Below are positions 54 to 26,641 of a stretch of 64,000 nucleotides of DNA, piece after piece (position 1 is the stretch's first letter; each line of letters opens with the position of its first letter). The notes under the pieces are model-generated. The model saw only the letters and a program-made list of their open reading frames with translations, had not been told where the DNA came from and searched no databases. The stretch is from Polynucleobacter finlandensis (lineage in GTDB: Bacteria; Pseudomonadota; Gammaproteobacteria; Burkholderiales; Burkholderiaceae). Location: assembly GCF_018881755.1 (NCBI RefSeq), contig NZ_JACVPS010000007.1:1-64000 (forward strand), written 5' to 3'. Both the position numbers and the translations under genes were made by a program.

Positions 54-1100
54 ATGAAAATAAAGAAAATTGTAGTTGCCATGGCGCTCGTATTGCCAGC
101 AGCAGGTGCAATGGCATGCGCTAGTTGTGGCTGTAGCCTAAACACTGATATTGGTACTCAAGGCATGGGTATGACCGAAGGCTGGACGCTTGATGTTCGC
201 TACGATACGCTCAACCAAAATAAATTGCGCTATGGCACGAAGAGTATTTCTCAATCTCAGGCAGCCAACACACCAAATCCAAAGACGGGGCAAAACGCAG
301 AGGTAGAGGGGTATACCCAAAACAATTATTTAACAGCTTCATTAGATTACAACGATGGTGAGAGCTGGGGTGTAACTGGAGTATTGCCATACATCATGCG
401 TAACCACAGTACGTTTGGTGTCTATGATGGAAGTGGGGATCTTCCACCAGCCCCTGGTGAAGGAGCATATAGCTCTAAAACCGCCGGCATTGGAGATATG
501 AAAATCATTGGCCGTTATTTTGGCTTTGCGGAGCAAAAGGATTGGGGATTCCAGTTTGGCGTGAAGTTGCCAACCGGCAGCAGAAATCAAACCGGCACAT
601 TAGCCGTTGGAGGCCCAGTTGCGGTAGACCCTGGTCTTCAGGCTGGTACTGGCTCCACCGATTTAATTGCAGGTATATACAAATTTGGCTTTATCAATGA
701 CTTAGAAAATTGGGGCTACTTTGCACAGGCGCAATATCAAGCTGCTGTAATGGTCCAGTCAATTCCTGGATCTTTGGTTGGCGTGAATGACAACCCAGGC
801 GGAACATACAGACCTGGAAATGCAGCTAATGTGAATGTGGGTGTGAACTACCAAGGCTTTGAGAAGTGGGTGCCAACCCTGCAGCTGAATGTTTTGAATA
901 AAACTGCTGATAGTGGAACGGCTGCAGATACTTGGGCAACCGGTGGCACCTTGGCTTATCTCACTCCTGGCGTACTGTATCGCTTGACCGAAAAAACCCA
1001 AGTGTATGCAAACGTCCAGTTACCTGTTTATCAGAACGTCAACGGTATTCAGTTGACCCCGTCTTATATTGCATCTATGGGGGTGAGAGTCTTTTTCTGA
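54..1100 (+). CDS. putative outer-membrane beta-barrel protein with Cys-rich mature N-terminus
   Basis: A 348-residue protein with an N-terminal signal peptide (about residues 1-20, hydrophobic core ending in AMA). The predicted mature chain would begin with the cysteine cluster CASCGC (residues 22-27). The rest is rich in alternating aromatic/polar stretches and Gly/Asn loops and ends in VRVFF; a terminal Phe is the usual mark of a BAM-inserted barrel. The -3 residue of the candidate lipobox is Ala rather than Leu/Val/Ile, so a lipoprotein is unlikely. It abuts the convergent TlpA gene and lies close to a copper chaperone gene, which suggests a link with metal or thiol chemistry at the envelope; this is inference. 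No specific family is recognised with certainty. The ATG follows a GGGG purine run. Confidence 0.7.
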   Translation: MKIKKIVVAMALVLPAAGAMACASCGCSLNTDIGTQGMGMTEGWTLDVRYDTLNQNKLRYGTKSISQSQAANTPNPKTGQNAEVEGYTQNNYLTASLDYNDGESWGVTGVLPYIMRNHSTFGVYDGSGDLPPAPGEGAYSSKTAGIGDMKIIGRYFGFAEQKDWGFQFGVKLPTGSRNQTGTLAVGGPVAVDPGLQAGTGSTDLIAGIYKFGFINDLENWGYFAQAQYQAAVMVQSIPGSLVGVNDNPGGTYRPGNAANVNVGVNYQGFEKWVPTLQLNVLNKTADSGTAADTWATGGTLAYLTPGVLYRLTEKTQVYANVQLPVYQNVNGIQLTPSYIASMGVRVFF

Positions 1101-1604
1101 TTAATGGCCTGATAAAAGCGGGGTGACAATTTCTTCAAGAAGTTTGGTGTCGACTGTTGGATCTCCAGTGAGCCCATTTTTTCTGAGGATACCCTGCTTA
1201 TCAATAATGAATGTACTTGGTATGCGCCAGATTCTGCCGTAGCCTGAGTAGTTGATTTGTTTTTTATCTGCAGACAGAAAGGAATAGTTTTGCATGATCT
1301 TTTGGGCTTGTTCAATGTCTGATGGTTTATCCATCGTGATAGCGAGCACCTCAAAACCCTTACTTTTATTTTTCTTGAGATAGGCTTCGATGATAGGCAT
1401 TTCTTCTCTGCAGGGTTCGCACCAACTGGCCCAAAAGTTGACTAAAACAACTTTACCCTTATGGGCCTGAAGGGAGAATGGCTTGCCATCTAAAAGAGTT
1501 CCCTCTATATTGGGTGCAACTTGCCCAAGCTCAATAGCAGCAAATACTGCATTGCACATGCAGGCTGTCAGCAAGGCAAAAAGTAGGGCGCGGTATCGAT
1601 GCAT
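1101..1604 (-). CDS. TlpA/ResA-like periplasmic thioredoxin
   Basis: A 167-residue protein with a signal peptide (about 1-22) and a thioredoxin fold carrying the redox motif WASWCEPC (Cys62, Cys65). The sequence GKVVLVNFWASWC and the downstream cis-Pro region around IPSTFIID are typical of the TlpA/AhpC-TSA group. Such proteins are periplasmic thiol reductants, often serving cytochrome c maturation or copper-site (cytochrome oxidase CuA) assembly. Its neighbour on the other strand is a PCuAC copper chaperone, and TlpA and PCuAC are known to cooperate in copper delivery, so a CuA-assembly role is plausible. Its stop codon directly abuts the stop of the barrel gene. No clear Shine-Dalgarno sequence is visible, so the start is chosen for the intact signal peptide. 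Confidence 0.85.
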   Translation of the reverse strand: MHRYRALLFALLTACMCNAVFAAIELGQVAPNIEGTLLDGKPFSLQAHKGKVVLVNFWASWCEPCREEMPIIEAYLKKNKSKGFEVLAITMDKPSDIEQAQKIMQNYSFLSADKKQINYSGYGRIWRIPSTFIIDKQGILRKNGLTGDPTVDTKLLEEIVTPLLSGH

Positions 1605-1646
1605 TGCGATCAGTATTTCATGAAAATCAATTTACAGGAGAAGGTA

Positions 1647-2132
1647 ATGATAAATAGTAATAAAGCGAAGAGTAGAAAAGTATTAGCATTCGGTATATTG
1701 ACCGCGGTCTTTGCATTGAGCACTGCTGTTTACGCCCAGACAGCTAAAGTCGGGAGTTTGCAGATTGACAATGCCTATACCCGTGCTACTGCTCCTGGCC
1801 AGCAAGTGGCCGGTGGTTTTATGAAGATTGAGAACAAAGGCGCTGCCGATCAGTTGATTTCAGCAAGCTCTCCTGCTGCTGGTGAAGTGCAACTTCATGA
1901 AATGGCCATGGAAGGCAATGTTATGAAAATGCGTCAACTGAAAGATATTCCTGTGCCTGCTGGCGGCGCTGTTGAATTAAAACCGGGCGGATTACATTTG
2001 ATGTTTATGAACATCAAGACTCCTTTGGCTGCTGGTGAAACCGTTCCAGTAAAGTTAAAGTTTGCCAAGGCTGGTGAAGTTGAAGTGAAATTTCCAGTCA
2101 ATGCTATGGGTGCTGGAGCGATGAAACACTAG
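1647..2132 (+). CDS. PCuAC family copper chaperone (DUF461)
   Basis: A 161-residue periplasmic protein. After a signal peptide ending near VYAQ comes a cupredoxin-like PCuAC domain with DNAYTRATAPGQQ, the ligand stretch LHEMAMEG with downstream Met residues, and GGLHLMFM. These supply the His/Met set that binds Cu(I) in the family. PCuAC proteins hand copper to cytochrome c oxidase or to Sco-type proteins. The reading frame is open further upstream (from 1599), but the ATG at 1647 is preferred because AGGAG lies 5-9 bases before it and the signal peptide then begins correctly. It is divergent from the TlpA gene, with which it probably forms a functional pair. A strong terminator follows. Confidence 0.88.
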   Translation: MINSNKAKSRKVLAFGILTAVFALSTAVYAQTAKVGSLQIDNAYTRATAPGQQVAGGFMKIENKGAADQLISASSPAAGEVQLHEMAMEGNVMKMRQLKDIPVPAGGAVELKPGGLHLMFMNIKTPLAAGETVPVKLKFAKAGEVEVKFPVNAMGAGAMKH

Positions 2133-6321: not shown

Positions 6322-7941
6322 TTAGGCTCTAAAGCGAGATGTAATAGGGTAGCGCCAATCGCGGCCAAAGGCACGCGTAGTGACCCTCACGCCAGGCGGC
6401 GCTTGGCGACGCTTGTATTCATTGAGTTTAATGAGGCGAGTGACCTTTTCAACACTTTCAGGATCAAAGCCGGCGGCAATGATTTGCTCGATGGATTGAT
6501 TCTGTTCCATATAGCGCTCAACGATCCCATCGAGCACTTCATAAGAGGGAAGACTATCCTGGTCTTTTTGGTCAGGGCGTAATTCAGCCGAAGGGGCACG
6601 CGTCAGAATGCGCTCCGGAATGATTGGAGCAATGCTATTGCGATAGGCGCACAAGCGATAGACCAGCGTTTTGGCAATATCTTTGATCACCGCAAAGCCA
6701 CCGGCCATATCGCCGTAAAGAGTGCAGTAACCAACGGCCATTTCACTCTTGTTGCCAGTAGTTAAGACCAGGCGACCTGTTTTATTAGAGAGTGCCATCA
6801 GTAGGGTGCCACGCACACGCGCCTGAATATTTTCTTCAGTGGCATCGATCTTTAAGCCTTTAAATTGCTCGGCCAGGGCTTTCTCAAAGGCATCTACAGG
6901 CTCGCTAATCGGAATTTCGTCATATTGAACATTCAAGTTCTTAGCCATCTCGCGTGCATCAATCCAAGAGATATCAGCGGTGTAACGGGAGGCCATCATG
7001 ACAGTGCGTACCTTGTCTGCACCTAAGGCATCGACTGCAATCGCTAATACCAAAGCGGAGTCAACGCCACCAGATAAACCAATGATGACGCCAGAAAAAC
7101 CATTTTTTTGAATATAGTCACGCACGCCCAACACAAGCGCTTGATAGGCTTGAGCTTCAACGCTCAGTAGTGAAGTGATCAATCCTTTTTCTAACTCACC
7201 TTGGCTGTCAAGATTGACAAAGCCAAGTGCACTTTCAAATTGCGGCATAGCCATTGCTAGCTCGCCTTTGGAATCGAGTGCGAATGAACCACCATCAAAG
7301 ACCAACTCATCTTGACCGCCAACTGCATTCACATAGACGAGTGGCATTTTGGTCAGAGCAATATGCTGACGCAACACTTCAATGCGTAAAGCTTCCTTTT
7401 GCAAATGGTAAGGAGAGGCATTGGGTACGAGTAGCACTTGAGCGCCTGCGCTATGGGCCTGTTTTGCAGGACCTGCGTGCCACGCATCTTCACATAGAAT
7501 CAGCCCATATTGAATGCCATCGCATTCGAAGACACAAGCTTGATTGCCGGGAACGAAGTAGCGGACTTCATCAAACACTTCGTGATTAGGCAACTCTTGT
7601 TTTGCGTAGCCCGCAATCACTTTGCCATCACGCAGGACGGAGGCGAAGTTTTGTAAACCAGCGGATGTTTTTTGAGGGTGACCCACAATGACAGTAAGAC
7701 CCGGCAAGCTTGCAAGCTCCAACATCAATGTATTGAGTTGCTGCTGAGCCGCTTCAATAAATGCGGGGCGCAACAATAGATCTTCTGGGGGGTAGCCAGT
7801 GAGCGAGAGTTCAGGCGTTAATACGAGTTTAGCGCCTTGCGCATAAGCATCTAAGGCAGCCTTGTGAATGAGCTGCGCATTGCCAGCCAAGTCCCCCAGT
7901 AACGGGTTCATTTGGACTAGGGCAATTTTCTGCGAGCTCAC
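6322..7941 (-). CDS. nadE: glutamine-dependent NAD+ synthetase
   Basis: A 539-residue two-domain enzyme that makes NAD+ from deamido-NAD+ with ATP, using ammonia released from glutamine. The N-terminal nitrilase-type amidase domain (about 4-260) shows Glu in LTPELSLTGYPPEDLL, Lys near GYAKQELPNHEVFDE and the nucleophile Cys in GLILCEDAWH. The C-terminal synthetase domain (about 275-539) has the PP-loop SGGVDSALVLAI and the LTTGNKSEMAVGY stretch. It starts at GTG with MSSQKIALVQMNPLLGD. The linkage nadE-glnB is notable because PII is known to control glutamine-dependent NadE in at least one proteobacterium (Azospirillum). A short hairpin lies at its stop codon. Confidence 0.96.
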   Translation of the reverse strand: MSSQKIALVQMNPLLGDLAGNAQLIHKAALDAYAQGAKLVLTPELSLTGYPPEDLLLRPAFIEAAQQQLNTLMLELASLPGLTVIVGHPQKTSAGLQNFASVLRDGKVIAGYAKQELPNHEVFDEVRYFVPGNQACVFECDGIQYGLILCEDAWHAGPAKQAHSAGAQVLLVPNASPYHLQKEALRIEVLRQHIALTKMPLVYVNAVGGQDELVFDGGSFALDSKGELAMAMPQFESALGFVNLDSQGELEKGLITSLLSVEAQAYQALVLGVRDYIQKNGFSGVIIGLSGGVDSALVLAIAVDALGADKVRTVMMASRYTADISWIDAREMAKNLNVQYDEIPISEPVDAFEKALAEQFKGLKIDATEENIQARVRGTLLMALSNKTGRLVLTTGNKSEMAVGYCTLYGDMAGGFAVIKDIAKTLVYRLCAYRNSIAPIIPERILTRAPSAELRPDQKDQDSLPSYEVLDGIVERYMEQNQSIEQIIAAGFDPESVEKVTRLIKLNEYKRRQAPPGVRVTTRAFGRDWRYPITSRFRA

Positions 7942-18025: not shown

Positions 18026-19192
18026 TTATTTCTGAAGAGCTGCTTTCCAGTCCCTAAATACATCTAGGTCAACTCCATCGGGATAGTTGAGCAGTCCCTG
18101 GGTATATCCCTTTTTACCTTTTTCACCATATTGCCAAATGATTTCCTTCGTTTTGCGATCAACCACGATAACCCTGTCATTGAGGTCATCTACGATTAAA
18201 ACATCGCCTGTATCTGGGAGCTCTCTAGCGATCGAAGAATGGTCTAAGACGCCATCTCCTTCCTTGGCAAAATACTCCCAAGTAATTTTTCTGGTGAGTG
18301 GATCAAAAATAACTACTCTTCCTGGTTTCCAGAAGTCAGCAACGATGATTTGTTTGCCATCAACCGTTGGAAAGGCATCGGAAGGGTAGCGAATATTCGG
18401 AGCCTTAACGCTCCACACCACCTTACCTTCTCTGGTAATGCGGGAGATCCATGAGTCAGTAATTTCTGTGATGAGAATATCGCCATTCTCCATTGGGGTT
18501 GCGCCGTTTGGATGGGCTAATTCGTAAGGAGGATTGTGTTTGCATTTCCCCGGTGTACCCCATTGAGAAACAGTTGAATTATCTTTGGGATCAATAATTA
18601 GCACACGGCAATTGCGAATATCAGCGGTTATGAATTTTCCATCAGCGAGTAAGTGTGCATCGTCAGGGTAGTTGAGTAAGCCTGGACCGCTGCCACGTCT
18701 GTCTGGAATACCATAAGTCCAAGCAAGCACTTTCTTTTCATAATCCACAATATGGACATCAAAGTTATCTTCTTCGCTCACAGCCAGTTGCTTGCCATCA
18801 GGGGAGAAGTTCACATCCTCATTCCCGCGATAGGCTTTAATGCTGGGTGATGGGAATTCCCAAATAATTTTCTTGTTTGGGGCAATTTCAATTAAGCGGT
18901 TATTGCGTCGATCGGCAATCACAATGGGATAAGGCAAAGGCTTGCCCCAGGAGGCTACTGGTTTTTGACGATTGCCAGTGATCACTGGAATAGGGGGCAA
19001 AACAGCGCCACTGGATACGACTCCTGCGCCCAGCATTTCTGGGGTAACTTGCACTTCAACGCCTGCTGGATTACCAGCCTTAGCGACCTTGGTTTCTGCT
19101 TTGCTGTGTATAGGCGTCAATCCAAGACAAAGAAAGACGGCAACCCAATATAAATCAGAGGTCTTGGGAAATGCTGCAATTTTGGTATGCAT
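18026..19192 (-). CDS. exported beta-propeller protein (arylsulfotransferase/NHL-like)
   Basis: A 388-residue protein with a signal peptide (about 1-32). About six repeated blade units follow, with motifs such as IAPNKKIIWEFPSP, YEKKVLAWTYGIP, TREGKVVWSVKAP, PLTRKITWEYFAKEG and RKTKEIIWQYGEKG. Each unit pairs an 'I/VVD' strand with a 'xxWxY/F' strand, as in ASST-like and PQQ-type propellers. Recurrent LLNYPDDA/LLNYPDGV phrases mark blade starts. No catalytic residues can be assigned with confidence. The ATG has AAGGA six bases upstream. It probably forms an operon with the downstream DUF411 gene; the partnership suggests a metal-related periplasmic task, which is inference. Confidence 0.7.
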   Translation of the reverse strand: MHTKIAAFPKTSDLYWVAVFLCLGLTPIHSKAETKVAKAGNPAGVEVQVTPEMLGAGVVSSGAVLPPIPVITGNRQKPVASWGKPLPYPIVIADRRNNRLIEIAPNKKIIWEFPSPSIKAYRGNEDVNFSPDGKQLAVSEEDNFDVHIVDYEKKVLAWTYGIPDRRGSGPGLLNYPDDAHLLADGKFITADIRNCRVLIIDPKDNSTVSQWGTPGKCKHNPPYELAHPNGATPMENGDILITEITDSWISRITREGKVVWSVKAPNIRYPSDAFPTVDGKQIIVADFWKPGRVVIFDPLTRKITWEYFAKEGDGVLDHSSIARELPDTGDVLIVDDLNDRVIVVDRKTKEIIWQYGEKGKKGYTQGLLNYPDGVDLDVFRDWKAALQK

Positions 19193-19295
19193 GAGAATCC
19201 TTAGTCAAAACACGAGGTGTTGATTTGATTATTGAGGACTTATGCGCTTGAGGATTTGATCTATCGCAACTCGATGACGGATTCTCAATATTGCT

Positions 19296-19970
19296 TTACA
19301 TGCTTTCTAGAATCGGGCGCTGATTGACGGGTTGTGCTGCGCGGGCATTATCAGAAAAAGATTTTTTGTAAACAGCTAACTGTTCAGTGGATACAGAAAT
19401 AGGTTCTTTTAAGATAAGCCATTCGACTCCTTCGGTGCAAGGGGGCGCTGTTAGAGAGCCCATATAACGGTAATAGCCCTTACTCACAGGGAGTAAGCCA
19501 TTGACATTAATTGATGTACTTTGAATGGCTTGATTAGGGCCCACTTGTTTGGGAATATTGCTTAAGAGGGTATCGAAAGTTTTATTCGAATCGCCCACGC
19601 GAAATAGCACAACTAAGGCTAGTAGTTGCCCGCTCGAACTTTTATGTAGAAAGTGAGCGCCCATCGGGAAGGTCTCACCGGAAATTTGGTCTCCAGCTGG
19701 GGTATGAAAATGCACCTGAGAAAGAGTGTAGATTTGTTTGCCAAGCTTGAGCTGGCTGTGGTTATTTAGTCTTACGCGCAAGGTATGCCCATCATTGGCA
19801 ATGACTAATGGTGAAGTCAGGTAGGTAAATTCTAGAGCGGGAAGTTTTTGCTTTTGGGTTGAGGTGATGTTGATGGGTGATTGCAGGCGGCCAGTATTAC
19901 AGGTATTTGCTAGGCAAGAGAATGACACTGAGGCACAGAGCGGTAACAACAATCGAGTAATGAGTCGCAT
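19296..19970 (-). CDS. alpha-carbonic anhydrase-like periplasmic protein, active site altered
   Basis: A 224-residue exported alpha-CA fold protein; the family hydrates CO2 at a His3 zinc. Zinc ligands His87, His89 (QVHFH) and His106 (AHFLH) are present, as are the proton-shuttle position His62 (DGHT), the Thr199-equivalent Thr174 (LTAPPC) and a likely disulfide Cys24-Cys178. However, the family's SEH motif (gatekeeper Glu106 of human CA II) is here AGD (Gly93), and the Glu two residues before the third ligand (Glu117 of human CA II) is Gly104. The usual N-terminal HW-x-Y segment ahead of QSPINI is also missing, making the protein about 20 residues short. Catalysis may be impaired or the role changed. 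It is divergent from thiM. Confidence 0.85.
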   Translation of the reverse strand: MRLITRLLLPLCASVSFSCLANTCNTGRLQSPINITSTQKQKLPALEFTYLTSPLVIANDGHTLRVRLNNHSQLKLGKQIYTLSQVHFHTPAGDQISGETFPMGAHFLHKSSSGQLLALVVLFRVGDSNKTFDTLLSNIPKQVGPNQAIQSTSINVNGLLPVSKGYYRYMGSLTAPPCTEGVEWLILKEPISVSTEQLAVYKKSFSDNARAAQPVNQRPILESM

Positions 19971-20079
19971 ATCCTTACATTACCTCAAATATGGCCGCAT
20001 GATAATTTGTAAGGAGTTATTGATTTAAAACAAATCGCCAGTTACTTCTTAGCCCTACATTACATAGATTTACGGGGCA

Positions 20080-20916
20080 ATGATGAAGCATCAATTGACA
20101 GCAGAACAATTGTGGGAAGATGTTTTAAGCGTACGCACACAGTCCCCGCTAGTTCACAGTATTACGAACTTGGTTGTCATGAATTTCAATGCCAATATGC
20201 TGCTAGCCTTGGGTGCTTCCCCAATCATGGCGCATGCCATTGAGGAGGTTGAGGAAATGGTGGGCATCTCACAGGCCCTAGTACTCAATATTGGTACTTT
20301 AGATGAGGGCTGGGTACGCGCAATGGGTGTGGCTAAAAAATGCGCTCGGGCAAAAGGTGTGCCCGTGACCCTAGATCCCGTCGGCGCTGGGGCGACCTCA
20401 TATCGAAATCAATGCATCACTGAGTTGATTTCATCTGATCCGCCAAATATCATTCGCGGTAATGCATCTGAAATCATGAGTGTTGCAGGTCTAGCAGTAG
20501 TAACAAAAGGAGTTGATAGTTCAGTCAGCTCTGATCACGCTATTGAAGCGGCCATGACTTTGGCTCGACAGATTGATGGGTTTGTTTGTATTTCAGGGCA
20601 GACCGATCATGTGATCGACGGCATGGGACGACATGTAAGCCTCTCAAATGGCAGTCAATTAATGACCAAGGTTACGGGAGTAGGTTGCTCCGCTACTGCA
20701 ATGATTGGTGCATTCTCTGCCGTACAGCCTGATTGGTTCAGGGCTACTGTGGGTGCAATGGCTTATCTGGGGGTGTCCGGAGAAATTGCAGAGCGCACAA
20801 CAAAGGCCACCGGAGGTGGTTCCGGCAGCTATCAAATCAATCTATTGGATGTGGTGAATTTGCTCGACAGGGAAATGTTTATTAAAACCGTCAACCTGGA
20901 ATTAACCAAGTACTAA
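20080..20916 (+). CDS. thiM: hydroxyethylthiazole kinase
   Basis: A 278-residue ribokinase-like enzyme phosphorylating 4-methyl-5-(2-hydroxyethyl)thiazole for thiamine salvage. Typical stretches are VHSITNLVVMNFNANMLLALGASPIMAHA near the N-terminus, VPVTLDPVGAGAT, IIRGNASEI and the catalytic anion-hole region KVTGVGCSATAMIGAF. The ATG ATG start makes the first residue uncertain by one. No THI-box riboswitch is visible in the 109 bases upstream, and no thiE or thiD is nearby. Its last 51 coding bases belong to a 63-bp sequence repeated after the next gene (see the repeat entries). Confidence 0.93.
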   Translation: MMKHQLTAEQLWEDVLSVRTQSPLVHSITNLVVMNFNANMLLALGASPIMAHAIEEVEEMVGISQALVLNIGTLDEGWVRAMGVAKKCARAKGVPVTLDPVGAGATSYRNQCITELISSDPPNIIRGNASEIMSVAGLAVVTKGVDSSVSSDHAIEAAMTLARQIDGFVCISGQTDHVIDGMGRHVSLSNGSQLMTKVTGVGCSATAMIGAFSAVQPDWFRATVGAMAYLGVSGEIAERTTKATGGGSGSYQINLLDVVNLLDREMFIKTVNLELTKY

Positions 20917-20928
20917 GGCAAGAAGTCT
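20866..20928 (+). repeat. imperfect direct repeat, copy 1 (thiM 3' end)
   Basis: Matches 21888-21950 at 49 of 63 positions by hand alignment, without gaps. On the plus strand this copy encodes the true thiM C-terminus (DREMFIKTVNLELTKY, stop). On the minus strand it encodes RLLALVLG-stop, nearly the C-terminus RFLTLVLS-stop of the esterase gene that lies beyond the DUF4239 gene. It marks an old thiM/esterase junction. Confidence 0.8.
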
Positions 20929-21077
20929 GGGTGTGAAAGTCTGCATTAGGGTTATGGATGTCGCCTGACTAGCAAATTCAGGTAAATAAGCTTCGCGGGT
21001 TCATTAAGACTTTTTATTGAGGCCGAATTGGTAATTCAGATAATATCTAGCGATAATTACTGAATCGGAAATAATCC

Positions 21078-21860
21078 ATGCCCAGCTTTATCTATCGATT
21101 TTCAAATCTAGCGATTATGGTGTTTTTTATCATCTTAATTACTACGGTAATGAACTACCTTCCAAAACTGCTTCAATTACTTCCCTTCATGGATCCTAGT
21201 GACGAGAGTACAAAATTAGGTCAGTCCTTATTTTCACCAATTGCTTCTAGTGCAGGCCTGCTGATAGGTTTTTTATTAAATCAGGCGCAAACCAATTTTC
21301 GTGAAGTTGAGATGATAGTTTCTTCAGAGGCGGGCAGAATAAATAACCTTGATAGGCTTCTACTTCGATTTGGAAGTGAACAGGCTTTAGGTATTCGCCT
21401 CAAAATAAGGGCATATATTGAGTCAATCATTCAGGATGAGTGGCCCGATCTCAGGGAAGGTAGGGGTAGCAGTAAAACGCATATGATTTGGCGATCAATT
21501 TCTCAAGATGTATTTCAGCTTGACCCACAAACTCCAAAACAGCTTGCCTTATATTCAGACATTATTAAAAAATCTGAGGAAATTTCTGAAAGTCGCGAGA
21601 TGAGAATTGATAGATCAGAAAAACATTTACCTGCATTATTTTGGGTTGTTATTTTTCTTTGTCTTGGAACACTTATGGGCGTCAATACTTTATTTTTACC
21701 TTCCGATCATTTCGTATTCGGTTTAACCATTCTTCCAATAGCATTTGGGGGATTGATTTCCTTATTAGTAATAACGGATAGACCTTTTAGAGGGCAAAAT
21801 GCCATCACCTCCTCTGCGTTAGGTAAGGTGCTGGCATCAATCAAAACTAGAAATATATAG
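21078..21860 (+). CDS. DUF4239-like (bestrophin-like) membrane protein
   Basis: A 260-residue protein with two N-terminal hydrophobic segments (about 8-36 and 50-66), a soluble helical middle (about 68-185), and two C-terminal helices (about 185-205 and 211-233). The pattern, with SSEAGRINNLDRLLLRFG after helix two, matches DUF4239 bestrophin-related proteins, whose function is not established. It is visibly AT-richer than its neighbours and is bracketed by the 63-bp repeats that reproduce the thiM/esterase junction, so it was probably inserted between two genes that used to be adjacent. No integrase or transposase accompanies it. Confidence 0.7.
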   Translation: MPSFIYRFSNLAIMVFFIILITTVMNYLPKLLQLLPFMDPSDESTKLGQSLFSPIASSAGLLIGFLLNQAQTNFREVEMIVSSEAGRINNLDRLLLRFGSEQALGIRLKIRAYIESIIQDEWPDLREGRGSSKTHMIWRSISQDVFQLDPQTPKQLALYSDIIKKSEEISESREMRIDRSEKHLPALFWVVIFLCLGTLMGVNTLFLPSDHFVFGLTILPIAFGGLISLLVITDRPFRGQNAITSSALGKVLASIKTRNI

Positions 21861-21887
21861 GGCGGCAACCCTCTTCCAGGGCATCAA

Positions 21888-21950
21888 AACAGAGAAAGGT
21901 TTAGTAAAACCGTCAGCCCGGAGTTAACTTAGTACTAAGGTTAAGAATCT
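21888..21950 (+). repeat. imperfect direct repeat, copy 2 (esterase 3' end)
   Basis: Partner of 20866-20928. On the plus strand, in the frame corresponding to thiM, it reads NRERFSKTVSPELT-stop, a decayed thiM C-terminus without a gene body. On the minus strand it supplies the real esterase C-terminus RFLTLVLS-stop. Many differences fall at third codon positions, consistent with divergence while coding. Confidence 0.8.
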
Positions 21951-22589
21951 AGAAATATCCGTTAGCTCATCTGGGTGGAGTGAGTGCTCCATGGGGTAGG
22001 TATTCCAATCCACTTGATAGCTCAGCTTTTCCAATACATCAACAGATGCTTCGGCGCGTTCCGGAATCACAACAGCATCCCAAATTCCGTGAGCCATAAA
22101 AATAGGCGTGTCCTGATTGGCGGCGCTTCTTTCCGTTGCTAATGATGTTGCTAGTGGTAAGTAGCCTGATAGCGCCATGATCCCTGCCAACTTGTGCGGG
22201 AAACGCAGACCTACCTGTAAGGACATGGCGCATCCTTGTGAGAATCCAGCCAAGACAATGTTTTCATAGGCAATGCCACGGGTAGCTTCGCGCTCAATCA
22301 GGGCGGTGATGGCTGCAGCAGATTTCTGTATACCAGATACATCTTGGCGATCGGTGAGATCTCTACCGGTGATGTCATACCAGGCTGGCATAACATAGCC
22401 ACCGTTTACAGTAACCGCCATGCTGGGTGCGCTTGGGAAAACAAACCGAATTGCTGGACAATCTGTCAGTTTGAGCTGAGGAATAATAGGTACAAAGTCG
22501 TTTCCGTCAGCGCCTAGGCCATGGAGCCAGATTACTGAAGCGCTTGGATTGGGTGCAGTTTCTATTTCAATGCAGGGAAGAGTAGTCAT
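21924..22589 (-). CDS. alpha/beta-hydrolase carboxylesterase (phospholipase/carboxylesterase family)
   Basis: A 221-residue serine hydrolase of the PF02230 type. The oxyanion-hole region is VIWLHGLGADGNDF. The catalytic triad is visible as Ser117 (GFSQG), Asp171 (HGIWDAVV) and His202 (MEHSLHP). Members hydrolyse short-chain carboxyl esters and lysophospholipids; the physiological substrate here is unknown. Length fits the family. Its last codons come from the second copy of the 63-bp repeat, showing that this 3' end once faced thiM directly. Confidence 0.92.
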   Translation of the reverse strand: MTTLPCIEIETAPNPSASVIWLHGLGADGNDFVPIIPQLKLTDCPAIRFVFPSAPSMAVTVNGGYVMPAWYDITGRDLTDRQDVSGIQKSAAAITALIEREATRGIAYENIVLAGFSQGCAMSLQVGLRFPHKLAGIMALSGYLPLATSLATERSAANQDTPIFMAHGIWDAVVIPERAEASVDVLEKLSYQVDWNTYPMEHSLHPDELTDISRFLTLVLS

Positions 22590-22670
22590 ATGTATTTAAT
22601 GGTTAATTGCCAAAACGAATATTAAAGCTCCGTTAATATAGGCTTACAGCACCCACGGAGTAGTGTATTC

Positions 22671-22937
22671 ATGAATAAAAATTATCTTACTGTAATTGCT
22701 ATTGTTGGCCTCAGTCTTGCGGCTTGCGGAACCCCACCTAGTCAGTTTGGCGTCTATCGACAGTCTGATGGAACTATTGGGGTGCACTCTCCGAAATCAG
22801 CCACAGAAGAGGAGTCTCACGATGCGGCTGTTGAGGAGTGTAAAAAACTAGGAAAGCGAACCGCAACTGTTCTTGAAGGACGTAAAACAGTAAACGACCG
22901 CTTTCCTATGACTTACATCTATGCCTGTGGTAATTGA
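22671..22937 (+). CDS. small putative lipoprotein
   Basis: An 88-residue protein with a lipoprotein signal peptide: hydrophobic core TVIAIVGLSLAAC with lipobox LAAC (Cys19) followed by GTPP, favouring outer-membrane sorting. The mature part is short, with three cysteines (19, 56, 86), and shows no recognisable domain. Two of these cysteines, in EECKKLG and YACGN, could form a disulfide. It stands alone between the esterase (divergent) and the histone-like gene (convergent). Function unknown. Confidence 0.7.
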   Translation: MNKNYLTVIAIVGLSLAACGTPPSQFGVYRQSDGTIGVHSPKSATEEESHDAAVEECKKLGKRTATVLEGRKTVNDRFPMTYIYACGN

Positions 22938-22947
22938 TCTTTAGAAA

Positions 22948-23838
22948 TTAGCTAAGCAACCACTTCTTAATCGATTTATCCACACACATTGCATCTAAAG
23001 CGATACCAAAGAATTCAGATCCGTTAGTGATCATGCTTTCAATTGCTTCTACCTTGCCAGATTTAATGCCGCGCAAGTAAGTTGCAACACGATATCTGAG
23101 GAAATGCTCATCTTCATCTTCTTCATTGGTTGTGGAGCAAATTTCTAGGCTGCCATAACGCGTTTCCGGATTGATATTCAAGATCGCCAAACCTAAAGCG
23201 GCAATGAGCTTATCTGGAACGGGGATGGGCACGTAGGAGTAGAGGGATACCAGTCGCTCTTCTTCATCGACTTCAATGATGTGATCAATCTCTAAGGTAT
23301 CTTGCTCTGTTAATTCTGTTTCACCAGAGTCGCCGCCACCGAAGGTGGATTCAAACTGCAGCATCGCAGTATTGCTGTCTCTGGAGATCTCGATCATGTC
23401 AGGGTAGCCAAGCAGGCCTTTCCACCAATACATCAGCGAGAAGGTGCATGGCTTTACTTCTACTAAACCTTCGTCGGTGGATTTGGCAAAGTAAAGACCA
23501 TAAAATTCATCGTCCGACTCTAGTCCATATTGATCAACCTTGGGTGATTTAATGGAAGCCTTTTTAACTGGCTTCTTAGCCGGTTTTTTGACAGCAGGTT
23601 TCTTTGCCGCTACTTTTTTAACTGGTTTCTTAGCAACTGGCTTTTTGGCAGCCACTTTCTTAGGAGAAGCTTTTTTGGCAACTACTTTCTTCGTTGCTGG
23701 TTTTTTCACTACCTTTTTCACTACCTTCTTGGCAGGAGCCTTTTTGGCAACTGGCTTTTTGGTAGCTTTTTTTGCAGGGGCTTTTTTTACCACCTTGGTA
23801 GCTACTTTCTTTTTTGCTGATAACTTCTTTGTAGCCAT
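22948..23838 (-). CDS. histone H1-like Lys/Ala/Pro-repeat protein fused to a YbjN-like domain
   Basis: A 296-residue protein in two parts. Residues 1-100 are low-complexity Lys-Ala-Pro-Val repeats (KKPVAKKAPAKK, AAKKPVAKKPVKK), like eukaryotic H1 tails and bacterial H1-like proteins such as AlgP or BphC; this part should bind DNA nonspecifically. Residues 103-296 are an acidic globular domain (SLMYWWKGLLGYPDM, NPETRYGSLEICSTTNEEDEDEH, FLRYRVATYLRGIKSG). It loosely resembles YbjN/type-III-chaperone-like folds, but this match is tentative. The mix suggests a nucleoid-tethered adaptor. A GTGCA-TAG-TGCAC palindrome lies 30-42 bases upstream. Confidence 0.75.
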   Translation of the reverse strand: MATKKLSAKKKVATKVVKKAPAKKATKKPVAKKAPAKKVVKKVVKKPATKKVVAKKASPKKVAAKKPVAKKPVKKVAAKKPAVKKPAKKPVKKASIKSPKVDQYGLESDDEFYGLYFAKSTDEGLVEVKPCTFSLMYWWKGLLGYPDMIEISRDSNTAMLQFESTFGGGDSGETELTEQDTLEIDHIIEVDEEERLVSLYSYVPIPVPDKLIAALGLAILNINPETRYGSLEICSTTNEEDEDEHFLRYRVATYLRGIKSGKVEAIESMITNGSEFFGIALDAMCVDKSIKKWLLS

Positions 23839-23867
23839 GGTTTATTACCCTTCTTTTGGTAGTTATT

Positions 23868-23880
23868 GTGCATAGTGCAC
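23868..23880. promoter_or_regulatory. palindrome upstream of the histone-like gene
   Basis: GTGCA TAG TGCAC, a 5-bp perfect inverted repeat placed between the likely promoter and the ATG of the H1-like gene. A candidate operator; the binding protein is unknown. Confidence 0.35.
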
Positions 23881-23988
23881 TGTTTGATATTACTGCAATT
23901 TATATAAGGATTTGCTGCTTCTATATGAGGGTTTTCCGTGGAATTACAAGTGGGTTGGTGGATTTAGCAAAAAATTGTTTTCAGTACC

Positions 23989-24016
23989 TTGAAATTGGGT
24001 GCTGACTTGCTAAACT
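23989..24016 (+). promoter_or_regulatory. sigma70 promoter of the YdcH-family gene
   Basis: TTGAAA (23989-23994), a 16-base spacer and TAAACT (24011-24016), about 42 bases ahead of the ATG at 24059. Confidence 0.5.
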
Positions 24017-24664: not shown

Positions 24665-25666
24665 TTATTCATCTTTGATATTGGCTGCCTTAACAATTTT
24701 TGTCCAGCGCGCCACATCCGCCTTTAAGAAGGCTTGAAATTCTGCTGAGCTTCCACCTACTGGCTCGGCACCTAAATTTTTAATGCTGGTAATGACTTCA
24801 GGGTTTGCCAATGCTTTGGTGATAGCAGCATTCAGACGCTTTACCACTGACTCTGGCGTACCTTTGGGGGCAAAGTATCCAACCCATGGAGCCGTGTCCT
24901 CAAAGCCCTTAAAGCCAGCTTCGTTCATAGTAGGCACGCCCGGGAAATCTGGACTGCGCGCTTTAGTGCCGGTAGCGAGAACGCGAATGCGATTATTTTT
25001 AGCCAACTCTGGAACGCCAACAATCGGGTAGAACATGAAATCGACTCTTCCAGCCATCACGTCCATCAGGGCTGGGCCGTTTCCTTTATAGGGGATGCCA
25101 GTCATCTGCAAATGGGCCTCTTCTGCAAACATTTCTGCGGTCAGGTGACCAGAGCTGCCATTGCCTGATATCGCATAGTTAATTACGCCTGGACGTGCTT
25201 TAGCTGCTTGCACAACATCATTCACAGTTTTATAGGGTGATTCAGGGCTAGTCACCATCACCATGGGTAAGTTAGCAACTTGTTCAATCGCAACAAAATC
25301 TTGCAATGGTTTGTAAACATTCTTCTTGAGAATAGGATTTACGTTGAAATGGAGTGATGCGCAAAACAAGGTGTAGCCATCCGGCGCAGCATTGAGTGCT
25401 GCATTCGTAGCAATCATCGAATTGGCACCGGCAATATTTTCCACAATTACAGGCTGCCCTAGATTGAGAGTCATTTCTTTAGCGAGAACTCGCGCAATGA
25501 TGTCAGTAGGGCCTCCAGCAGTAAATCCAATAATGACTTTAATAGGACGGATCGGATAGTTTGCCGCTGAGTTGCTTTGAGCAAATCCTGAAAGGCTAAA
25601 AAAGAAAGCGGCCAAGCAAAGGAAATATTTTATGAGATATTTTTTGGCGTTCATATTTTCTTTCAT
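24665..25666 (-). CDS. tripartite tricarboxylate transporter (Bug) substrate-binding receptor
   Basis: A 333-residue periplasmic receptor of the Bug/TctC family. It has a signal peptide (hydrophobic LIKYFLCLAAFFFSLSGFAQ) and the family landmarks YPIRPIKVIIGFTAGGPTDI, GQPVIVENIAGANSM, NAAPDGYTL, VPYKGNGPALMDVMAG and GVPTMNEAGF. Such proteins bind small carboxylates, but no TctAB membrane partners are present. The gene starts 3 bases after the fumarylacetoacetate hydrolase stop, so the two are one operon, and the ligand is probably that enzyme's substrate or precursor. An internal ATG four codons in is a possible start. Confidence 0.92.
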   Translation of the reverse strand: MKENMNAKKYLIKYFLCLAAFFFSLSGFAQSNSAANYPIRPIKVIIGFTAGGPTDIIARVLAKEMTLNLGQPVIVENIAGANSMIATNAALNAAPDGYTLFCASLHFNVNPILKKNVYKPLQDFVAIEQVANLPMVMVTSPESPYKTVNDVVQAAKARPGVINYAISGNGSSGHLTAEMFAEEAHLQMTGIPYKGNGPALMDVMAGRVDFMFYPIVGVPELAKNNRIRVLATGTKARSPDFPGVPTMNEAGFKGFEDTAPWVGYFAPKGTPESVVKRLNAAITKALANPEVITSIKNLGAEPVGGSSAEFQAFLKADVARWTKIVKAANIKDE

Positions 25667-25669
25667 AAG

Positions 25670-26545
25670 CTAAGCGATGGTATTAGTCAAAGCATCTAGG
25701 TAGGCGATGGATAGCTTGACCTCATCTCCCGGTTTTAACCAAACTGGTGGGTTTCTGAAGGCGCCTATGCCTGCTGGAGTCCCGGTAGCAATAATATCCC
25801 CGGGCTCTAAGGTGGTGAATGTGGAAATATATTCAATCTGAAAGTCCACAGGGAAAAGCATATCCCGAGTGTTGCCATGCTGCATGAGTTCACCATTGAG
25901 CCAGAGGTTTAACTCTAGTTCCTGGGGATTGGTCAGCTCATCTGCCGTCAAAATATAGGGTCCCAATGGGCAAAACCCATCCATGCTTTTGGCGAAAGTT
26001 GTTTGTGGTGGGCTGATATCAAACTGAAACTCTCGGGCGCTGACATCATTCAAGATCGTGTACCCGGCAACATAGTTGAGCGCCTGATCTCTGGAAATAT
26101 TTTTAGCCCTTCTTCCAATCACTACTGCTAATTCAATTTCAAAATCGAGCTTAGTGACACCGGGGGGTGTATGAATAATGGTATTAGGTCCTGTAATGGA
26201 AGATGGAAACTTAGAAATAATGCGGGGTTTCTCAAACGGCTGTACGCCAGTTTCTTTGGCGTGATCGGCATAATTTCTACCCAGGGCAACAATTTTTCCA
26301 GGGCGTAACAAGGGCGCCTGAAGTTCCACCTCTGTCAGCGGGATGAAGTTTTTTGTCGACTGAATATATTGATTAAGTTCAGAAAAAAGTGTCTTATTAC
26401 TTTCTAGCTCTCGCAAAAGCTCAACCATGTTACCCACTGGGTTACATGCTTTTTGGAGGTATGAGGTTAATTCAATAATGTTGGGGTATTGCATGACCCC
26501 AATGAGGTATTGATTTGACTTCGTTTTGTAGGTAACCAGTTTCAT
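25670..26545 (-). CDS. fumarylacetoacetate hydrolase (FAH) family protein
   Basis: A 291-residue enzyme of the FAH superfamily, which cleaves C-C bonds or decarboxylates beta-keto acids with Mg2+. The C-terminal catalytic region contains VALGRNYADHAKETG, the metal-binding Glu pair in LDFEIELAVVIG, FAKSMDGFCPLGPYI and TGTPAGIGAF. The first 70 residues form the small N-terminal domain. Family members act on fumarylacetoacetate, fumarylpyruvate, acylpyruvates or oxaloacetate, and sequence alone does not choose. Pairing with a Bug receptor points to uptake and breakdown of an external aromatic or keto acid. Confidence 0.9.
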   Translation of the reverse strand: MKLVTYKTKSNQYLIGVMQYPNIIELTSYLQKACNPVGNMVELLRELESNKTLFSELNQYIQSTKNFIPLTEVELQAPLLRPGKIVALGRNYADHAKETGVQPFEKPRIISKFPSSITGPNTIIHTPPGVTKLDFEIELAVVIGRRAKNISRDQALNYVAGYTILNDVSAREFQFDISPPQTTFAKSMDGFCPLGPYILTADELTNPQELELNLWLNGELMQHGNTRDMLFPVDFQIEYISTFTTLEPGDIIATGTPAGIGAFRNPPVWLKPGDEVKLSIAYLDALTNTIA

Positions 26546-26641
26546 GGAAATGTAGTCTCGGCACTTATATTTTTATTCCTAAAATACTAACCTGATTGTC
26601 AATGTTGCGGTGCTTTTATGAGGCATGCGCTATATTGAGAT

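Follow-up and report, generated by a model that had tools for sequence, protein, structure and literature searches.

A DUF4239 gene between two copies of a thiM/esterase junction in Polynucleobacter finlandensis: probably one old insertion with a long target duplication

Introduction

The target duplications of insertion sequences and transposons measure 2–14 bp. Tyrosine-recombinase islands located at the 3' end of a gene carry a repeat of that 3' end at the far end of the insert. In the Methylophilaceae, additive flexible genomic islands are marked by recurring repeats of tRNA 3' ends (PMC10872708). Conjugation and transformation studies provide cases in which foreign DNA is inserted without a recombinase of its own and part of the target is duplicated. 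In one such Escherichia coli experiment, 56 of 60 clones gave a PCR product for the duplicated target and duplications of 109–950 bp were confirmed in 14 sequenced ones; its authors concluded that a single crossover with a circular molecule had taken place (PMC3240628).

Here we analyze a stretch of 64,000 nucleotides (hereafter the window) from Polynucleobacter finlandensis, in which a DUF4239 gene lies between two imperfect copies of the junction of thiM and an esterase gene. Like insertion sequences and transposons, the insert is flanked by a direct target repeat, but the duplication is 62 bp long and neither a transposase-like ORF nor terminal inverted repeats are present. The arrangement also resembles a tyrosine-recombinase island at a gene 3' end, although no integrase gene is found in the insert. 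With the Methylophilaceae islands it shares variable genes accompanied by repeated host gene ends; unlike those islands, it is bounded by the ends of protein genes and lacks a tRNA-Phe or tRNA-Arg end and a cassette site (PMC10872708). As in the E. coli experiment, part of the target is duplicated beside the incoming DNA, whereas that experiment involved duplications of 109–950 bp, cloned homology and a single crossover, and the present case is a natural and old duplication of 62 bp for which no donor was found (PMC3240628). The locus is a clean example of an already known kind, a neat but mostly ordinary gene gain, and it provides an unusually readable record of such a gain, with two empty sites and a measurable duplication. 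Among the titles listed in searches of open-licence papers, none was found to describe this insertion or tRNA-Phe cassettes of the genus.

Results

The inserted segment of ~960 bp (positions 20929..21888, forward strand) is located between thiM, the hydroxyethylthiazole kinase gene (20080..20916, forward strand; PF02110, E 5.8e-77), and a gene for a phospholipase/carboxylesterase-type hydrolase, here called the esterase (21924..22589, reverse strand; PF02230, E 3.2e-50). Its composition is foreign, with a GC content of 38.6% vs 46.2% for the window. The sole credible gene of the insert encodes a DUF4239 protein of 260 aa with a bestrophin-like domain (21078..21860, forward strand; PF14023, Pfam E 6.7e-35) and is preceded by a leader of ~150 bp within the insert. 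The remaining ORFs of at least 40 aa reach at most 56 aa and were judged by size, the HMM search having covered DUF4239. No recombinase gene was detected in the insert or in the flanking ORFs scanned, as an earlier note on this DNA had said of the insertion. Since inverted ends and a transposase-like ORF are missing, with none of the seven inverted-repeat pairs in 20000–23000 joining the insert ends, a transposon or insertion sequence was ruled out. Searches of the 64-kb window with a tRNA-Phe 25-mer (6 mismatches allowed) and a tRNA-Arg 23-mer (5 mismatches) gave no match, and no tRNA family was found in 19000–24000 at E values up to 1. The scan of this interval for RNA elements gave one chance-level match, and no element reached its gathering score in the locus that spans the site (L003); the two tRNA matches of the RNA-family scan lie in two other loci (L084 and L012).

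The leader matches only itself in its own genome, and elsewhere in the genus a query spanning it retrieved nothing but junctions. The possibility that decayed esterase or thiM sequence reaches into the insert was rejected, as the similarity of leader and tail is no better than that of shuffled sequences; one leader match, on the reverse strand of a 12-kb stretch of the relative G138, scored 42 against at most 40 in 50 shuffles. In phage and plasmid collections DUF4239 had no tblastn match, and in viral contigs no confirmed one. A role in defence was likewise rejected, the PADLOC match being just 0.034.

The insert is flanked by two direct repeats, which are identical at 49 of 63 positions in an ungapped alignment; the earlier note had read them correctly, but had called their 78% identity a divergence of 78%. 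Copy 1 (20866..20928, forward strand) contains the real thiM 3' end (...ELTKY-stop) and, in the esterase frame of the minus strand, a ghost end that reads RLLALVLG-stop. Copy 2 (21888..21950, forward strand) contains the real esterase 3' end on the minus strand (RFLTLVLS-stop) and a ghost thiM end, NRERFSKTVSPELT-stop, in which the stop comes early; it includes, in diverged form, the last 47 bp preceding the thiM stop codon. Both ghost C-termini thus lie in the reading frames that had been claimed for them. The best core of the repeat covers 52 nt (20867–20918 vs 21889–21940) with 85% identity, and the repeat constitutes one of three direct-repeat families of at least 30 nt found within 6 kb of each other in the window. 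When the 63-mer was searched against the own genome, just two matches were obtained at E ≤ 0.001, namely itself (6.9e-27) and the second copy (2.5e-10). Therefore the repeat is neither a chance similarity nor a dispersed element; the latter reading, which the earlier note had named as fatal to its proposal, is ruled out by the lack of a third copy.

Two relatives that lack the inserted segment at this junction, G138 and G146, show what the site looks like when empty. In both, thiM and the esterase are convergent and overlap by 15 bp, including both stop codons, and a single junction is present. This is the arrangement that the earlier note had postulated as ancestral and had predicted for relatives without DUF4239. 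No match to DUF4239 was found anywhere in G146 or in G138, the latter being 85% complete. Bases 6809–6870 of the G138 locus (L068) align to both sides of the insert, which gives a target duplication of 62 bp and an insert of ~960 bp; the blastn breakpoints are 20928|21889 in the window and 6870|6809 in G138, and copy 1 is colinear with the empty site as far as 20928. The comparison with G146 shows the same double alignment with a duplication of 51 bp, so that the proposed duplication of the junction upon arrival of the gene is borne out against both relatives. The identity to G138 is similar on the two flanks (84.3% left, 86.9% right), and no donor tract next to copy 2 was visible against G138 in steps of 200 bp. 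For the genes themselves, thiM is 85% identical in G138 and 78% in G146, and the esterase is 92% identical in G138. Four other clean indels of more than 200 bp in the same comparisons have duplications of at most 3 bp, indicating that long duplications are not the rule here. A second insertion relative to G138, at 24667–26594 of the window, carries genes for a TctC receptor and an FAA hydrolase and has a target duplication of 3 bp.

The two flanking genes differ in their distribution in the genus. The esterase is matched in 124 of 186 genomes and thiM in 5 of 186 (3 of the 144 good ones); what matches in G140 is a fragment located at the end of a contig. Of the five genomes with thiM matches, G134 and G140 have the two genes on separate contigs and the other three have them side by side, so the pairing is seen in three genomes. 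The esterase loci were compared with respect to a downstream repeat of the esterase 3' end. After removal of one contig-edge locus from 30, a clear repeat was found among the 29 examined solely in the window (score 28.8), while the scores of two others (12.6 in L043 and 12.0 in L062) slightly exceed those of their five shuffles. In G140 (L071, 6955–7997) and G087 (L078, 6844–9431) the esterase 3' end overlaps other convergent ORFs by 4 bp, and thus, judging from these sequences, this end seems to acquire varied convergent partners. On its other side, thiM is adjoined by an alpha-carbonic anhydrase gene (PF00194; 19296–19970), which is separated from the bestrophin-like gene by 1.1 kb; G138 has this gene too, and in G146 it is not beside thiM. 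A bicarbonate link between the carbonic anhydrase and the bestrophin-like gene is only a thought.

To estimate how the two copies have changed, we compared them with the empty sites. Among the 35 positions that belong to thiM only, five changes are unique to copy 2 and none is unique to copy 1. Over the 16 positions that begin with the thiM stop codon the copies are level, with two unique changes apiece, which favors neither; compared with G138, copy 2 differs at two of these positions and copy 1 at four, and beyond them copy 1 retains no resemblance to the esterase. The pattern fits a history in which each copy would have kept its coding half while the other half drifted, and this is clearer on the thiM side. 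Including eight overlap sites, copy 2 has 7 unique changes in 43 positions, or 0.18 per site after correction (binomial 95% interval of the raw fraction, 0.07–0.31). The fourfold-site distance between the window and G138 is 0.53 for thiM (half, 0.26) and 0.42 for the esterase (half, 0.21), and the full distance ranges from 0.25 to 0.73 over the five genes measured. As the drift of copy 2 is somewhat below half of the fourfold-site distance, the event appears to be old and perhaps occurred soon after the window and G138 lineages split. When copy 1, copy 2, G138 and G146 are compared, three sites divide them 2:2: one unites copy 1 with G138, two unite copy 1 with G146 and none unites the two copies. 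A common ancestor of the copies after the G138 split thus receives no phylogenetic support. The divergence of the copies is, by these counts, about what might be expected from the decay of two unneeded gene ends. A second lineage is accordingly not required, although it is possible given the few informative sites; of the two sources of divergence offered by the earlier note, an old event stands and recombination between different lineages loses its necessity.

Relatives of DUF4239 of any degree occur in 98 of the 186 genomes of the genus. The closest one, with 78% identity, is found in G143, and a tRNA-Phe-type cassette site lies ~110 bp upstream of its start. In G027 the gene has tRNA-Phe on one side and the next copy of the tRNA-Phe end on the other, and in G030 a broken gene lies between a tRNA-Phe end copy and a terminator half. 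In G018 (L084, 7900–9202) it is located between two diverged repeats of 167 bp that end in tRNA-Arg(TCT) fragments, with an intact tRNA-Arg at a distance of 4–5 kb. Hence 4 of the 12 neighborhoods fetched from the 98 genomes with a match, including that of the closest relative, place DUF4239 beside or between tRNA 3' ends. The DUF4239 gene of G021 is 3.7 kb from such ends and is not bounded by them; in the seven other neighborhoods no tRNA ends were found when Phe and Arg ends, and for two neighborhoods also Leu ends, were sought. A search for flank repeats within 500 bp of 28 other DUF4239 relatives (30 loci including the window, with the G140 row, L013, dropped as a contig-edge artefact) was clear in G018 alone, where the repeat is the tRNA-Arg unit. 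The alignable part of the relatives in tRNA neighborhoods ends at or just past the DUF4239 gene, so the leader in the window is not shared with them. A cassette origin of the DUF4239 gene is plausible; integration by cassette machinery at the window site is not supported. Several genomes carry distant paralogues of DUF4239 (22–27% identity) upstream of the esterase, at distances of up to a few kb and away from the insert side (for example G017:C3:15574-17133 and G184:C1:1473338-1476269).

Discussion

Our preferred explanation, to which we assign a probability of roughly 60%, is a single old illegitimate insertion of a foreign DUF4239 gene with a target duplication of 62 bp. The gene and its leader of ~150 bp would have entered once, at the 15-bp overlap of the convergent thiM and esterase genes, and 62 bp of the target would have been copied, namely the thiM stop codon with the 47 bp that precede it and the 12 bp that follow. 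Both genes would thereby have kept their 3' ends whole, each in the copy on its side of the insert. The joining was probably illegitimate, for example by fill-in of a long staggered break or, alternatively, by a template switch during replication that returned 62 bp upstream; neither would require a sequence-specific enzyme. Two spare ends would then have drifted, that of thiM in copy 2 and that of the esterase in copy 1, the latter being antisense to the last codons of thiM. This explanation is supported by the single target copy at the empty sites of G138 and G146, by the recombinase-free insert and by its foreign composition, whereas 62 bp is long for a staggered break and the failure of all three 2:2 sites to unite the copies counts against it.

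We think that the long duplication is a survivorship effect, in which selection explains the exception. An insertion that copied less than the 15-bp overlap would have altered one protein end, and the present insertion may have survived because the duplication supplied each of the overlapping genes with a separate end. Overlapping convergent genes thus offer a reason for the survival of a long target duplication, which suggests as a general expectation that, between such genes, insertions with target duplications no shorter than the overlap would be overrepresented.

Homologous import would instead start from a donor in which DUF4239 already lay beside the same junction; recombination there, via linear DNA with one homologous end or via a circle and a single crossover, would leave the recipient and the donor copy on either side of the gene. 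Flanking duplications follow naturally from a single crossover, as in the E. coli experiment (PMC3240628), and the 2:2 sites that burden a single insertion speak for separate copies. Such a route was proposed in the earlier note, in which a relative sharing this junction supplied the DNA that brought in the gene; the duplication stands, and a donor is possible but was not found among 186 species. With at most four candidates per genome scored, the junction was found in 3 of the 186 genomes and beside DUF4239 solely here; this and the near-equal identity to G138 on both sides, with no donor tract near copy 2, speak against such an import. We consider it unlikely.

In a site-specific integration, a tyrosine recombinase supplied in trans would use the thiM 3' end as its attB and insert a cassette that brings along its own copy of the gene end. 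The layout of an intact gene upstream, cargo and a partial 3' end is that of tRNA-targeting islands, tRNA 3' ends adjoin or enclose the DUF4239 relatives in G143, G027, G018 and G030, and in the own genome a tRNA-Phe cassette array has a gene for a tyrosine integrase (PF00589, E 1.3e-7) next to it. DUF4239 aside, however, the insert has no ORF of integrase size, the window contains no tRNA-Phe or tRNA-Arg fragment, and the insert ends and the junction do not resemble a cassette site, the best of eight comparisons being matched by 2.1% of shuffles. Moreover, the thiM–esterase pair was found in 3 of 186 species, seemingly too few for an integrase dedicated to this site to persist, and we regard this integration as very unlikely. 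The related idea that DUF4239 is a travelling cassette gene of tRNA-anchored arrays, whose trans-acting machinery can also land at the 3' ends of protein genes, thiM among them, has an equally slim chance of being right; if true, single-gene cassettes would spread beyond tRNA arrays and rebuild the ends of the genes they hit. That the versions of the junction from two strains were joined around the gene during assembly is hardly credible: the genome is an assembly of 41 contigs, but a 62-bp repeat with 78–85% identity seems too short and too diverged for a misjoin, and the early stop in the thiM frame of copy 2 is unexpected for a real thiM junction.

The tRNA-Phe cassette array elsewhere in the own genome may merit more attention than the DUF4239 insertion. 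In this integron-like array (L134, G000:C2:1-16000), the tyrosine integrase gene (395–1648, reverse strand) lies beside tRNA-Phe, and the tRNA 3' end recurs ten more times, with up to 5 mismatches, each time closing a segment that contains 0 to 3 ORFs of at least 70 aa. A left arm that is absent from the tRNA (37-mer, up to 3 mismatches) is carried by six of the ten copies, and by eye most of the tRNA-end copies are followed by a terminator-like hairpin. The left-arm 37-mer was found in 96 of 186 species, compared with 0 for the reversed control, and close relatives of the integrase are absent from some of the genomes with such tRNA ends. The cargo of the array includes members of the GST, MFS, lipid A acyltransferase and molybdopterin families.
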